Shown here piece after piece: positions 12,170-36,345 of a stretch of DNA of 36,777 bases. The DNA lies in the NCBI GenBank assembly GCA_031276965.1, contig JAISMC010000001.1:1-36777 (forward strand), in the 5' to 3' direction. Within the stretch, counting starts at the first letter, position 1. Each line of letters starts with the position of its first letter. The stretch is from Treponema sp. Its GTDB lineage: Bacteria > Spirochaetota > Spirochaetia > Treponematales > Breznakiellaceae. Under the pieces are notes generated by a model, which was not told the origin of the DNA, did no database searches, and saw nothing but the letters and a program-made list of their open reading frames with translations. A program made the position numbers and the translations under genes.

Positions 12170-13666
12170 CTATTTACCGCTGTTCCCCGTACTCTGCGGA
12201 GGAAGAGGCGTTTCCGTTTTTCGGCGTCCGCCGGTTCCGGTCTTTTCGTAGTGGAAACGCCAGGAGAGGGTCCAAATCCATTCCCGGGGAAAGTCTTCCG
12301 AAGCCAGTTTTACCGTAAAGCGGCCGGATTTTCCCCGAACCGAGGCGGAAAAATTTACGCCCCAGATGGGGTCCTTGTCCGCCGGTACGGTCCATCCCAG
12401 CCTGGCCTTGAGCAGAAAAATCGTAACCGGACAGGAAAATTCCCCCGAGACCTTAAACGAGTTAAAGCCGTAGCCGCCGGCGGGGTTGGGAAAGGCCCCC
12501 GGCCCGCCGCCCGTTCCCGCAAGGGTTCCCTGAAACACGGAACTGACCGGTCCTGCGGCAAAACCCGCCGTTCCTTCGGCGCTGTCCAGGACCGCGTCCG
12601 GATCGGAGCCGTCACGGTTAAGGGTTAGGGAGAAGCGGGTAGGCCGCAGGAAAAGACCCTTTCCCCCCGGGGCCGCGGGAAGCCTATAGTAGAGGGCGGC
12701 GCTGCTCCGTTCAAAGGCTTCTCCGAAGCCCTTTGAACGGAGGGAAACGGCGGTCCGGAAAAGGCCGTTCCGGGCGCCGAATCTTTCAAGCCGGAGGGCG
12801 TTTCTAAAACCAGCGCCGGCGGCGGTCCCGTCCGGGCCGGTGTACCTTTCCCCCGTCCCGTCGGCGGCCAGGGAAAGACGCCAGGGCTTGTTCCCCAGCC
12901 GGAGGGCGGCGTTTCCGTAAATATCCGCCCCATAGCCGAAGGCTTCCGAATAGGCCCAGTCGCTTGCAAAGCCGATAAGGGGGGCGTTAAAGTTTACATT
13001 GGCCCCGTAGATACGGAAATCCCGTTCAGGCAGGGGCGGGGTTTCGGAAAACCATGCGGAGGCCTTTCTGGGGGGAAGGGTTCTTTCGGTAAAGAACCCT
13101 TCCATGCTTAGGCTTGTTTTTCCGGCAAGCTGGGCTGCCATACCCCAGCTGTAGGCCGGGATCCATTCATGGTCCAAAACCGCCGAGGCAAAACCCCTAA
13201 AGGGGCCCAGTTGAGGACTGCCCAAGTAAAGATAGGTCTCCGCCTCCCTGGTAGAGGATGGTTCTGTCTTTAGATCCCGTACCGAAGGTTTATGGGACTC
13301 TACGAAGGGAACGGTCCGGGCCCAGGGATTGCGGATTCGGGCGGGAAGTCCCGCCTCATCCTGGATACCGTAGAGAAAGCGGGAACCGGTACTGTGATAG
13401 AGGCCCCCCGAAAAGGCGGTATTTCCCGCTTCAATGTTTTCCCAGGCGGGACGTTTGTCTATCATCTGGGCCCGGCTGGTAAAACCGAAACCCCGGAGCC
13501 GCAGATCCAGCCGGTCAATCAAACTTGCATCCTGTTCCCAGGAACCTGCGGCGGTCAATTCCATGCCCAAATCCGCCGATTTTTCCGCGGAGAGGGATCC
13601 GGCGGAGAGGACAAAGACGGCCAGGGCAAAGGCGGTCCGCCGCAGAACCAATGTTTTATGGCGCAT
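12170..13666 (-). CDS. Putative outer-membrane beta-barrel protein
   Basis: A signal peptide covers about residues 1-27 (basic start, hydrophobic core, ending LSA). The mature 470 residues have no transmembrane helices and are rich in alternating polar/aromatic strands with many Gly, Ser, Phe, Trp and Tyr, ending in a strand WTLSWRFHY. This looks like a beta barrel. The final about 20 residues are hydrophilic, so the usual C-terminal Phe is not at the end. No family was recognised. The gene follows EF-G divergently across 150 bp only in position, not in operon, since it lies upstream of EF-G on the same strand. AAAGGG near the ATG is a weak ribosome site. Confidence 0.7.
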   Translation of the reverse strand: MRHKTLVLRRTAFALAVFVLSAGSLSAEKSADLGMELTAAGSWEQDASLIDRLDLRLRGFGFTSRAQMIDKRPAWENIEAGNTAFSGGLYHSTGSRFLYGIQDEAGLPARIRNPWARTVPFVESHKPSVRDLKTEPSSTREAETYLYLGSPQLGPFRGFASAVLDHEWIPAYSWGMAAQLAGKTSLSMEGFFTERTLPPRKASAWFSETPPLPERDFRIYGANVNFNAPLIGFASDWAYSEAFGYGADIYGNAALRLGNKPWRLSLAADGTGERYTGPDGTAAGAGFRNALRLERFGARNGLFRTAVSLRSKGFGEAFERSSAALYYRLPAAPGGKGLFLRPTRFSLTLNRDGSDPDAVLDSAEGTAGFAAGPVSSVFQGTLAGTGGGPGAFPNPAGGYGFNSFKVSGEFSCPVTIFLLKARLGWTVPADKDPIWGVNFSASVRGKSGRFTVKLASEDFPREWIWTLSWRFHYEKTGTGGRRKTETPLPPQSTGNSGK

Positions 13667-13738: not shown

Positions 13739-13892
13739 AAAAAAGCCCTGGTAAAGGAGGCTTTCCCAAAACTTCAGTTTTTGGGAAAGCTACCTTAGAT
13801 TTATATGAAAAAATGGGTTTTTGACCGTTTTTCCGGAAGCTTTTCCCGAAACTAACCGGGTTTTGGGAAAAGCTCAAAGACCAGGGCTTTTT
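13739..13892. terminator. Bidirectional terminator split by a MITE
   Basis: AAAAAAGCCCTGGT (13739-13752) and ACCAGGGCTTTTT (13880-13892) are complementary arms. Between them are AAAG, a 119-bp MITE and a second AAAG. Without the insertion the site reads as a 12-bp stem with an AAAG loop and A and T tracts on either side, a classic intrinsic terminator for both strands. On the minus strand it would end the TPR-coaE-SPOR transcript. Confidence 0.75.
13757..13875 (-). mobile_element. 119-bp MITE, copy 1
   Basis: Reads GAGGCTTTCCC on the left and GGGAAAAGCTC on the right, flanked by AAAG on both sides (13753-13756 and 13876-13879). It has the same length and three-hairpin structure as copies at 30098 and 36145 but opposite orientation. 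It encodes no protein. It is inserted in the loop of a terminator hairpin. Confidence 0.88.
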
Positions 13893-13920: not shown

Positions 13921-14679
13921 TCAGCGCCGGGACTGGCTTTGCCAGATCTGGCTTTCTTCAAAACCCTGTATGGTTTTTATCAGGGAGAGCCAATAGTTGG
14001 CTTCGTTCTGAGAGGTATAGGGACCTATCCGTACCCGGTAAAAGGTCTTGCCCCCCACATCCCGGTTTTCGATGATGGAGGCTATTCCTTTGGAAGCCAG
14101 AGTTTCCTTTACCCCGTCGGCCCGGACCAGGGTAGAAAAGGAACCGGTCTGTACCCAGAAATCACTGCGTACTTCGGTTTTGGGTTTGGCGGGAGCGGCT
14201 GCCGCCGGGGCGGTAGTCCTGGGAGCGGGGCTGGCCGCCGGAACGGCGGCAGACCGGACGGGCGCGGCGGCAGGCTTGGGCCGGACCGGGGGAGCGTCGG
14301 GAACTGCGGCGGCGGCGGGTTTGGGAACGGCGATAACCACCCTGTTTTTCTCTTCATCGCTGGTCTGCTGTACTACCTGGTCAGGGTTATCACCTAAAAA
14401 GTAAAAGACATTTTCCTGACTCGCCGTAAAAGAAGCGGGAGGAGTCTCGAGACCCTGGACTTCACCGGAATTCCGGGTCATGTCCAAGGCATCCGCCGAA
14501 GCGGGCTGCACGGGTCCGGGCGGGGTATTTGAAAAGGAGACCCCCGGCGGAATAGGCCGTTCTATGGCCGCCACGGCGGTTCCGCTCTTGGGCGACAATA
14601 CCAGTATGGCTGCGCCCATGACAATTACCAGAAATACCCCTACCGAAACTGCAACCAGCAGTAATTTTTTCTTTTCCAT
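13921..14679 (-). CDS. SPOR-domain membrane protein
   Basis: SPOR domains bind glycan strands stripped of stem peptides at the division septum. The protein has a short cytoplasmic start, one transmembrane helix at about 6-28, a long Pro/Ala-rich linker and a SPOR domain at about 171-252 (begins SDFWVQTGSFS, includes YRVRIGPY). This bitopic layout matches FtsN-like and related division proteins. Its ATG overlaps the coaE stop codon by one base, so it is translationally coupled to coaE. The terminator downstream is split by a MITE. Confidence 0.85.
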   Translation of the reverse strand: MEKKKLLLVAVSVGVFLVIVMGAAILVLSPKSGTAVAAIERPIPPGVSFSNTPPGPVQPASADALDMTRNSGEVQGLETPPASFTASQENVFYFLGDNPDQVVQQTSDEEKNRVVIAVPKPAAAAVPDAPPVRPKPAAAPVRSAAVPAASPAPRTTAPAAAAPAKPKTEVRSDFWVQTGSFSTLVRADGVKETLASKGIASIIENRDVGGKTFYRVRIGPYTSQNEANYWLSLIKTIQGFEESQIWQSQSRR

Positions 14680-15296
14680 TACCGTGTCCCCCTCCGGGAA
14701 AGAATTGCGTCCAGCCGGTTTTCAAGCATCCTCCGGTACAGGGAGGAACAAAAACCGCAGTATCCCGGATTATCTATGGTATCAATATCGGCCTTTCGTA
14801 TTAAATATTGAGAGATGAATTCCTGCTGGCTTTTGAAGCGCCGGATCAGCTGGCTCAGGGGCAGACGGTCCCGCCTCCGGGCCCGGAGAAGCCTGGCCAG
14901 GAAGGGGGCACGGACCAGGATGATGAAGTCCAGCCGCTTAAAAACACTGGACCGGTGGAGCAGCGCCGCATTGATAACGCAGGGCCCGTTTTGACGGGCT
15001 ATCCAGGCTTCGGTAAGGCGGTTCGCCGCGGGATGCACAATATCCTCCAGGGCGTTCAGCGCTTCCGGTTTTCCAAAGACCCTGTTCCCCAGCAGCCGGC
15101 GGTCTACGGCGCCCCCCGCATCGAGAATGTCCGGGCCGAACCGGGCCATAACCGCCGCTTTTTCCGCCTCCAGAACTTCGTGCCCCAGCTTGTCCACATC
15201 CAGCACCGGAAAGCCCCGTGCTTCCAGAAGCCGGGCCACATAATTCTTCCCGGCGCAGTAGATCCCCGTAAGGCCGATAAGGGCGTTACTGTTCAT
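14679..15296 (-). CDS. coaE: Dephospho-CoA kinase
   Basis: Phosphorylates the 3'-OH of dephospho-CoA, the last step of coenzyme A synthesis. The N-terminal P-loop is GLTGIYCAGKNYVA (8-21), where the usual Ser/Thr after GK is Asn. The HP motif of the family is present in DIVHPAANR. Length (205) is normal. It overlaps the TPR gene upstream by 11 bp and the SPOR gene downstream by one base, and polA lies nearby on the same strand, a neighbourhood seen in other bacteria. The odd P-loop leaves some doubt about kinetics but not about family. Confidence 0.88.
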   Translation of the reverse strand: MNSNALIGLTGIYCAGKNYVARLLEARGFPVLDVDKLGHEVLEAEKAAVMARFGPDILDAGGAVDRRLLGNRVFGKPEALNALEDIVHPAANRLTEAWIARQNGPCVINAALLHRSSVFKRLDFIILVRAPFLARLLRARRRDRLPLSQLIRRFKSQQEFISQYLIRKADIDTIDNPGYCGFCSSLYRRMLENRLDAILSRRGTR

Positions 15297-16329
15297 CCTT
15301 CTTGTTCAGCCAGTCAAAAAAGGTTTCTACCTCTTGCCGGCGCTGTTCCAGCCATGCTTCAGCATCCTTATCGCAGGACATGCTGATATAGCGGCAGAAG
15401 ATCTCAAGATAATCCGGCTTCCGGGTCAGCCGGATAAAGAAGGGAATGTAAAAATCCCGCCAGAGCCTTTCCGCCTCATCCCCGCCGTTCAAAGCGCCGG
15501 AACCGGAAAGCTCCGCCAGGCTTGTAAAGACATACGAAGTTTTCCGCAAAAAAAGCTCCCCTTCGCTTTTTTCTTTATACTCCCCGGCGGAATTCAGGGT
15601 TCCGGCCATGGAAACCAGGAGATCCAGCGCAGCAAAGCTGCCCGGCGTAAGGCTGATGGTTCCCGCTCCACCGGAGGTATCCACCGTAAGAAGCTGCTGA
15701 ATCATCCTGTAAGCCTCCCCGGATCGCCTGGAATAGGGTTCCAGCAGGAGAAAATGGTAGAGACAGAGGAGACTCTGGGCTTTCCGGTTTTGGTCGAAGA
15801 GCATTTTCCCCAAAAGATAGTTGCCGCTGGCATGGTAGGGGTTATTGAACACCCCCTCTGTCAGCGTGTCCAGGGCTTCATCGTACCGTTCCAGTTTATA
15901 GTAGGTGGTTCCCAAATTGTAGAAGAGGAGCGATGCGGCCCCGAAACGCCGGATGGCCTCGGTAAAAACCGTTATGGCCTCCTCCGGCCGGCCCAGATTA
16001 TCCAGGGCGGAACCCTTGGCGTCATAGAGGGCGGGCAGATACTGTTCGTCCCCCCCGGCGGCTTTAATGCCTGCCTCGGCGCTGGCCAGGGATTCCTCAT
16101 ATTTTTCATCGTAGGCGTAAGAGAAAGCCATCTCGTAGTATATCAAAGGAGAATCCGGTTCCAGTTCCAGGGCTTGCTGGTAGTATTCAACCGCGGCGGC
16201 ATAGTCCCCCTGATCGTGGGCATAGATTCCCTGCTGGATTAAGGCATCCGCCGGGCTTTGTTCCGCATCCTGGGCATGGAGCAGCGGAACAAACGAAAAC
16301 AGAACCATGCCAAGCCATACTTTTTTCAT
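15286..16329 (-). CDS. Secreted TPR-repeat protein
   Basis: A cleavable-looking signal peptide (MKKVWLGMVLFSFVPLLHAQ) is followed by at least four to five tetratricopeptide repeats between about 25 and 215 (for example YAHDQGDYAAAVEYYQQALEL). The rest to 347 is helical without a recognised domain. TPR arrays bind proteins, so it is likely a periplasmic adaptor; the partner is unknown. GAGGAG precedes the ATG. The end overlaps coaE by 11 bp, so coaE depends on this transcript. A hairpin repeat sits just upstream. Confidence 0.8.
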   Translation of the reverse strand: MKKVWLGMVLFSFVPLLHAQDAEQSPADALIQQGIYAHDQGDYAAAVEYYQQALELEPDSPLIYYEMAFSYAYDEKYEESLASAEAGIKAAGGDEQYLPALYDAKGSALDNLGRPEEAITVFTEAIRRFGAASLLFYNLGTTYYKLERYDEALDTLTEGVFNNPYHASGNYLLGKMLFDQNRKAQSLLCLYHFLLLEPYSRRSGEAYRMIQQLLTVDTSGGAGTISLTPGSFAALDLLVSMAGTLNSAGEYKEKSEGELFLRKTSYVFTSLAELSGSGALNGGDEAERLWRDFYIPFFIRLTRKPDYLEIFCRYISMSCDKDAEAWLEQRRQEVETFFDWLNKKDEQ

Positions 16330-30020: not shown

Positions 30021-30240
30021 TACTCCGTCGAACCTCTGGTTTGCGCTCTGCTCCGATGCAGGCAGCGCAGTGCTTACAAAAATTTGGCGTTAAAACAGAG
30101 CTTTTCCCAAAACGTGGTTAGTTTCGAGAAAAGCTTCCGAAAAAACGGTCAAAAGCCCGTTTTTTCATATAAATCCAAGGTAGCTTTCCCAAAAACTGAG
30201 GTTTTGGGAAAGCCTCAACAGATGGTTTTATAAATTTCCT
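30002..30240 (+). repeat. About 116-bp dispersed repeat, interrupted by a MITE (copy 1)
   Basis: From ATTCGAAAGTC to TTCCT this matches the element at 36659-36773 once the 119-bp MITE (30098-30216) and one AACA are removed, leaving 116 bp against 115. It bridges two convergent genes and contributes the stop codons of both the DJ-1 gene (+) and the PfkB gene (-). Confidence 0.8.
30098..30216 (+). mobile_element. 119-bp MITE, copy 2
   Basis: GAGCTTTTCCC ... GGGAAAGCCTC, flanked by AACA at 30094-30097 and 30217-30220. About 11 of 119 positions differ from copy 3. Removing it and one AACA restores the host repeat, which demonstrates insertion with duplication. Confidence 0.9.
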
Positions 30241-34937: not shown

Positions 34938-34947
34938 TATGAATCTA

Positions 34948-34986
34948 AGGCTGCTTTCCCAAAAACTGGAGTTTTGGGAAAGCCTC
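34948..34986 (+). repeat. Solo right-end hairpin of the MITE family
   Basis: AGGCTGCTTTCCC...GGGAAAGCCTC is nearly identical to the last 39 bp of the 141-bp element at 1015-1155. No left end or target duplication was found. It follows aroE by 10 bp and may act as its 3' hairpin. The next 160 bp to pdxY hold nothing recognised. Confidence 0.6.
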
Positions 34987-36144: not shown

Positions 36145-36263
36145 GAGCTTTTCCCAAAACCCGGTTAGTTTTGGAAAAAGCTTCCGAAAAAGCGGTCTAA
36201 AGCCCGCTTTTTCATATAAATTCAGGGTAGCTTTCCCAAAAACTGAAGTTTTGGGAAAGCCTC
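36145..36263 (+). mobile_element. 119-bp MITE, copy 3
   Basis: GAGCTTTTCCC ... GGGAAAGCCTC with AGTG at 36141-36144 and 36264-36267. Contains three stems: around GCTTTTCC/GGAAAAAGC, GAAAAAGCGG/CCCGCTTTTTC and GCTTTCCCAAAA/TTTTGGGAAAGC. It sits upstream of pdxY, near where a -35 box would be for the TATAAT at 36118-36123. Confidence 0.9.
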
Positions 36264-36311: not shown

Positions 36312-36345
36312 GTTTGTCCATAATGTGTCTACATTATGGACAAAC
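36312..36345. repeat. Perfect 15-bp stem-loop at the transposase remnant end
   Basis: GTTTGTCCATAATGT-GTCT-ACATTATGGACAAAC. The stop codon of the transposase fragment falls in its loop region. It may be a terminator-like 3' hairpin or an element end. Confidence 0.6.

Follow-up and report, generated by a model that had tools for sequence, protein, structure and literature searches.

A 119-bp MITE lies exactly within the loop of a predicted transcription terminator in the window, by which we mean the whole 36,777-nucleotide stretch of DNA analysed here. We propose, with a probability of roughly 60%, that the transposase of a 1.2-kb IS moved the MITE into this loop through a symmetric, A/T-based target, and that the terminator was weakened and not lost. 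In this scheme, a non-autonomous element would have been mobilised by the transposase of an IS with the same kind of ends, and a 4-bp staggered cut would have opened the 4-nt loop of an intrinsic terminator behind the TPR-coaE-SPOR genes. The features of the site and its surroundings are as follows.

12170-13666, minus strand: next gene downstream of the terminator, with no Pfam match
13740-13752, no strand assigned: left terminator arm AAAAAGCCCTGGT, placed by sequence and inverted repeat
13753-13756, no strand assigned: left copy of the AAAG target duplication, which is the original hairpin loop
13757-13875, plus strand: 119-bp MITE with GAG...CTC ends, three stem-loops and no transposase
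13757-13791, plus strand: 5' terminal hairpin of the MITE, with the terminal inverted repeat GAGGCTTTCCCAAAAC as its first 16 bases
13808-13835, plus strand: short central hairpin of the MITE, with an A-tract, G+C core and T-tract in most copies and weak here
13837-13875, plus strand: 3' terminal hairpin of the MITE, with the second terminal inverted repeat as its last 16 bases
13876-13879, no strand assigned: right copy of the AAAG target duplication
13880-13892, no strand assigned: right terminator arm ACCAGGGCTTTTT, placed by sequence and inverted repeat
13921-14679, minus strand: gene for a SPOR-domain protein (PF05036), the last before the terminator
14679-15296, minus strand: gene called coaE in the first-pass annotation, a name carried over here as a locus marker
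15286-16329, minus strand: gene for a TPR protein

The two arms pair perfectly over 13 bp, or over 14 in minus-strand RNA if one G-U pair is counted. Deleting the MITE and one AAAG restores the stem with AAAG as its loop and leaves A- and T-tracts on the outside. The first-pass annotation had put the insertion precisely in the loop with AAAG as its target, and the coordinates and the arm pairing bear this out; as it also claimed, the hairpins of the MITE now sit within the terminator, since the element lies between both arms. Its perfect pairing stands as well, with a corrected length: the 14-nt left arm it gave includes one base outside the stem, which measures 13 bp and not 12.

The joined palindrome resembles an intrinsic (Rho-independent) terminator, with a G+C-bearing stem, a short loop, a T-tract and a position near a stop codon. 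Its minus-strand RNA is predicted to fold into a 13-bp stem closed by a 4-nt loop and followed by a U6 tail (T6 in the DNA) at -21.4 kcal/mol, and the stem begins 28 nt past the stop codon of the SPOR gene. Once this MITE is removed from the window, the joined palindrome is the only perfect 4-nt-loop hairpin with A/T tails; the other perfect hairpins with such a loop lie at 1123, where two MITE arms pair, at 13074 in coding sequence, and at 36312. Judging from these features, the joined palindrome is likely a transcription stop signal. It had been described as bidirectional, which is right for the structure but not for the genes: both flanking genes lie on the minus strand, so only termination on that strand matters to them.

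The palindrome might instead be part of an older repeat, or a product of chance, and no terminator at all. A palindromic target of a related insertion (L086, below) does belong to another repeat family. In the window, however, the flanks are unique in the genome: a genome search with the joined flanks returned no other good match, so the arms are unique sequence outside any dispersed repeat. The distance to the stop codon and the T6 tail also speak for a terminator, and chance would not be expected to place 13 perfect pairs around precisely this target. We therefore regard this alternative as very improbable.

That the inserted sequence is a MITE, as first annotated, is confirmed by about 40 copies in the same genome, in which full-length members run from GAG to CTC between exact 4-bp duplications that vary in sequence (AAAG, ACTT, TATT, TACA, AACA and more). 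Its terminal inverted repeats, GAGGCTTTCCCAAAAC and GTTTTGGGAAAAGCTC, match at 14 of 16 positions. With terminal inverted repeats, target-site duplications, many dispersed copies and no transposase, the element is mobile in origin. Within the same bacterial family, 136 of 200 genomes and 42 of 57 genera carry relatives of this 119-bp element. By title, most of the matching records are Treponema sp. MAGs and some are Spirochaetaceae; from the isolate names and genome sizes, we take these spirochaetes to be probably of termite-gut origin and the family to be probably Breznakiellaceae. A search of the plasmid collection with the element gave no match, and our literature search found no paper joining termite, Treponema and MITE. 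Across genomes we collected 256 distinct full-length insertions, 151 of them with an exact 4-bp duplication when the ends were free to shift by up to 4 bases; a control with mispaired flanks, run without end shift, gave about 1% identity.

The window holds three more members of the family: 119-bp copies at 30098-30216 and 36145-36263, with AACA and AGTG duplications, and a 141-bp variant at 1015-1155 with an ACTT duplication. A half copy at 34938-34986 consists of a single terminal hairpin. Elsewhere in the same genome, solo hairpins of 37-39 bp that comprise the two terminal repeats occur at L073, L075, L081, L082 and L088 with their 4-bp duplications retained. We considered these as minimal mobile units and rejected the idea; as many retain the duplications, in-place deletion between directly repeated hairpin arms is the simpler account. 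L062 and L091 contain a different hairpin repeat, whose ends resemble GGGAACCTCTAAAAAC...GTTTTTAGAGGTT and which has the CTTCAG loop also seen in the MITE family; at L062 it adjoins a truncated MITE copy. At L426 (501-612) the element lies within a long nested palindrome (ACACGAAT...ATTCGTGT). MAG contigs often stop in or beside the element (for example L225, L248, L253 and the contig ends of G016 and G150), which suggests that it breaks the assembly of these MAGs.

A candidate source of transposase was found by a PF05598 search followed by protein searches, which identified IS elements of 1.2 kb with one DUF772/DDE_Tnp_1 transposase and 16-bp ends of the same kind as those of the MITE. The ends of the L446 IS, GAGCCTTTCCCAAAAC and GTTTTGGGAAAGCCTC, are nearly identical to the MITE's; it encodes a transposase of about 364 aa and is flanked by duplicated ATCA(T). 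The single-contig genome G029 carries four IS copies with related ends, two of which have exact duplications (TTAA and TCTA), and the ends of the L371/L443 IS are also related. The other two G029 copies and L371/L443 lack an exact duplication beside the IS ends. Potentially autonomous elements with matching or related ends thus occur at L446, at L371/L443 and in G029. In the roughly 86%-complete genome bin to which the window belongs, we found no such IS transposase; PF13751 had no match there, and PF01609 only two fragments with unrelated ends. The partner transposase is nearest to the IS1182 model, at 85-102 bits against a cut-off of 270, with IS5 models next, at no more than 75 bits against cut-offs of 110-140, so that both fall below the cut-off. 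Given the shared ends and the length of the duplication, the 1.2-kb IS is likely the autonomous partner that moves the MITE.

To describe the target, we used the 145 of the 256 insertions that have both an exact duplication and recognisable ends, and summed both strands. The first base of the duplication is A in 0.60 of them, and position -4 is A or T in 0.86. A second preference appears at -10 and -11, where A reaches 0.51-0.53 and A+T 0.81-0.83; by -14 the composition is back at background, and further out A and A+T stand at about 0.29 and 0.58. The preference is symmetric, with A 10-11 bp to the left of the duplication and T 10-11 bp to the right. The same spacing characterises a compact terminator that consists of A-tract, 8-bp G+C-rich stem, 4-nt loop and T-tract. 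We scored sites with a matrix derived exclusively from insertions whose palindrome scores are low. The empty site of the window scores 5.79, which places it at the 83rd percentile of insertions and in the top 0.13% of sampled positions. The transposase would accordingly favour A at the first base of its 4-bp cut, A or T at 4 bp, and A- and T-tracts about 10-11 bp out, and the site would have been picked because the terminator layout fits this symmetric target.

The transposase might alternatively recognise the extruded or bent hairpin (cruciform) itself, with terminators targeted as secondary structures. There is precedent in IS1272 and TnSha1 of the IS1182 family, which insert at terminator hairpins (PMC4923244, PMC5678879), and the closest model for the present transposase is that of IS1182. 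Palindrome centres are also hit somewhat too often: 5 of 145 insertions have a palindrome score of at least 11, against 0.65 expected after matching for the target pattern (P 0.0006), and at this threshold the excess persists without the site that prompted the analysis (P 0.0045). At higher thresholds it is not significant once that site is left out (P 0.08-0.38), and the thresholds, viewed together, rest on small numbers. This modest excess over the target pattern is suggestive, and DNA shape may matter too. Against recognition of the hairpin as such, 140 of the 145 insertions fall below a score of 11, typical scores resemble those of controls, and the comparison with random genomic positions detected no general preference for palindromes. 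Moreover, insertion here duplicates 4 bp, whereas IS1272 removes some of the stem and leaves its target unduplicated. We therefore consider hairpin recognition possible but rather unlikely, and favour the target pattern, not hairpin shape, as the probable deciding factor. The earlier statement that the element chose a palindrome centre is true of this site but fails as a general rule, with only 2 of 145 insertions in strong hairpins.

Survivorship offers a different account, in which many AT-rich places are hit and insertions in terminator loops are seen because they are harmless, the stem re-forming, and not because they are preferred. Insertions do avoid long open frames (49% lie in a frame of at least 450 nt, against 80% of random positions), and the outer stem is predicted to survive the insertion. 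However, this account leaves the base-specific symmetric pattern at -10/-11, at -4 and at the cut unexplained, and most harmless intergenic positions are not loops. As the whole explanation, it appears distinctly unlikely. Within the target-pattern reading, the insertion may nevertheless have persisted because no gene was hit and the arms can re-pair around the self-folding MITE.

An empty site is available for a relative of the window element at another locus. In L086, a 144-bp variant sits between AAAAAACACGGATTTTGCC and AAAAATCCGTGTTTTTT, at a palindrome centre, with an AAAA duplication. Its joined flanks align with uninterrupted paralogues in the same genome at up to 112 of 116 bases with no gaps, directly demonstrating a 4-bp duplication at a palindrome centre. 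The target-pattern score of this site is middling (1.76). The host sequence belongs to a second family of dispersed repeats, which have a long palindrome at their centre (AAAAAACACGGATTTT...; for example G000:C120:3023-3108). For the window site itself, an exact-pattern search of an 84,980-genome collection did not find the joined sequence. At the coaE-SPOR loci fetched from the nearest relatives, which belong to other genera and whose proteins are 49-68% identical, we detected no MITE and could recognise no homologous stem. Most of these loci gave no hit with a simple terminator finder; by eye, L032 and L034 carry terminator-like sequence after the SPOR gene.

What the insertion does to termination was approached by predicted folding. 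With the MITE inside, the outer stem pairs with a predicted probability near 1 and is worth -15.0 kcal/mol, compared with -19.6 in the empty site. The stop signal can thus probably still fold around the MITE. Thermodynamics would tolerate the insert, while termination itself depends on the speed of folding, and we expect termination to be weakened yet probably retained. A simple terminator scan does not report the window site because its loop now exceeds the 8-nt limit of the scan. Just downstream the scan reports a weak hairpin with a T-rich tail (13735-13721, minus strand), of a kind no commoner than in shuffles.

The opposite outcome is that the terminator was inactivated, with read-through into 12170-13666, or that the MITE now serves as a new regulatory or mRNA-stabilising 3' structure. 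The arms are now 127 nt apart, which would be expected to slow hairpin formation, and the weak hairpin with its T-rich tail follows downstream. The three stem-loops are also conserved with compensatory changes: they are common to 32 diverse copies, 12 of 29 pairs have changed on both sides, and the covariation score of 0.267 exceeds that of shuffles (0.128) and of every slid version. This structure came from the tested alignment itself, and two of the hairpins include the terminal repeats, so the covariation need not mean RNA function; constraint on the terminal repeats as DNA could equally produce it. As the outer stem also stays thermodynamically dominant in the predictions, we judge loss or replacement of the terminator unlikely and keep to a weakened one.

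Several known systems bear on this interpretation. The staphylococcal elements IS1272 and TnSha1 insert into terminator hairpins, with part of the stem deleted and no duplication (PMC4923244, PMC5678879), and our literature search on insertion into terminator loops found nothing closer than IS1272. The likeness extends to the terminator hairpin as target and to the nearness of the transposase to the IS1182 model. However, IS1272 makes a blunt cut in the stem, whereas here the loop is split and the stem left intact, and most insertions of the present MITE family lie outside hairpins. The 4-bp duplications, the mostly non-hairpin sites and the L086 empty site without deletion all depart from IS1272-type targeting. 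The present case differs from these precedents in its split loop with a 4-bp duplication and in its general A/T target pattern.

The family resembles MITEs with a cognate DDE-transposase IS: it is short, non-coding and multi-copy, makes 4-bp duplications and has the 16-bp terminal inverted repeats in common with a larger IS. Unlike those, each end has its own internal inverted copy, so that both ends fold as hairpins. REP/BIME and the pneumococcal RUP, BOX and SPRITE elements are likewise small intergenic hairpin repeats, but in the present family the 16-bp ends are common to MITE and IS, and the 4-bp duplications are clear. REPs are not known to have these features. Some of the pneumococcal repeats resemble terminators, and one repeat may lie inserted in another (PMC10969869).

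More broadly, the target code of a DDE transposase (A-tract, about 9 bp, 4-bp cut, about 9 bp, T-tract) may coincide with the layout of a compact bidirectional terminator, so that MITEs could use loops as safe sites in which the terminator re-forms. We offer this generalisation tentatively and think it improbable as it stands, yet it provides a testable link between transposase target code and terminator architecture. The window site also offers a natural example of a probable terminator whose stem is split by 127 nt of self-folding RNA. For the MITE family, which these spirochaete genomes carry in abundance, there is now a large and clean collection of insertion sites, along with a likely partner IS.
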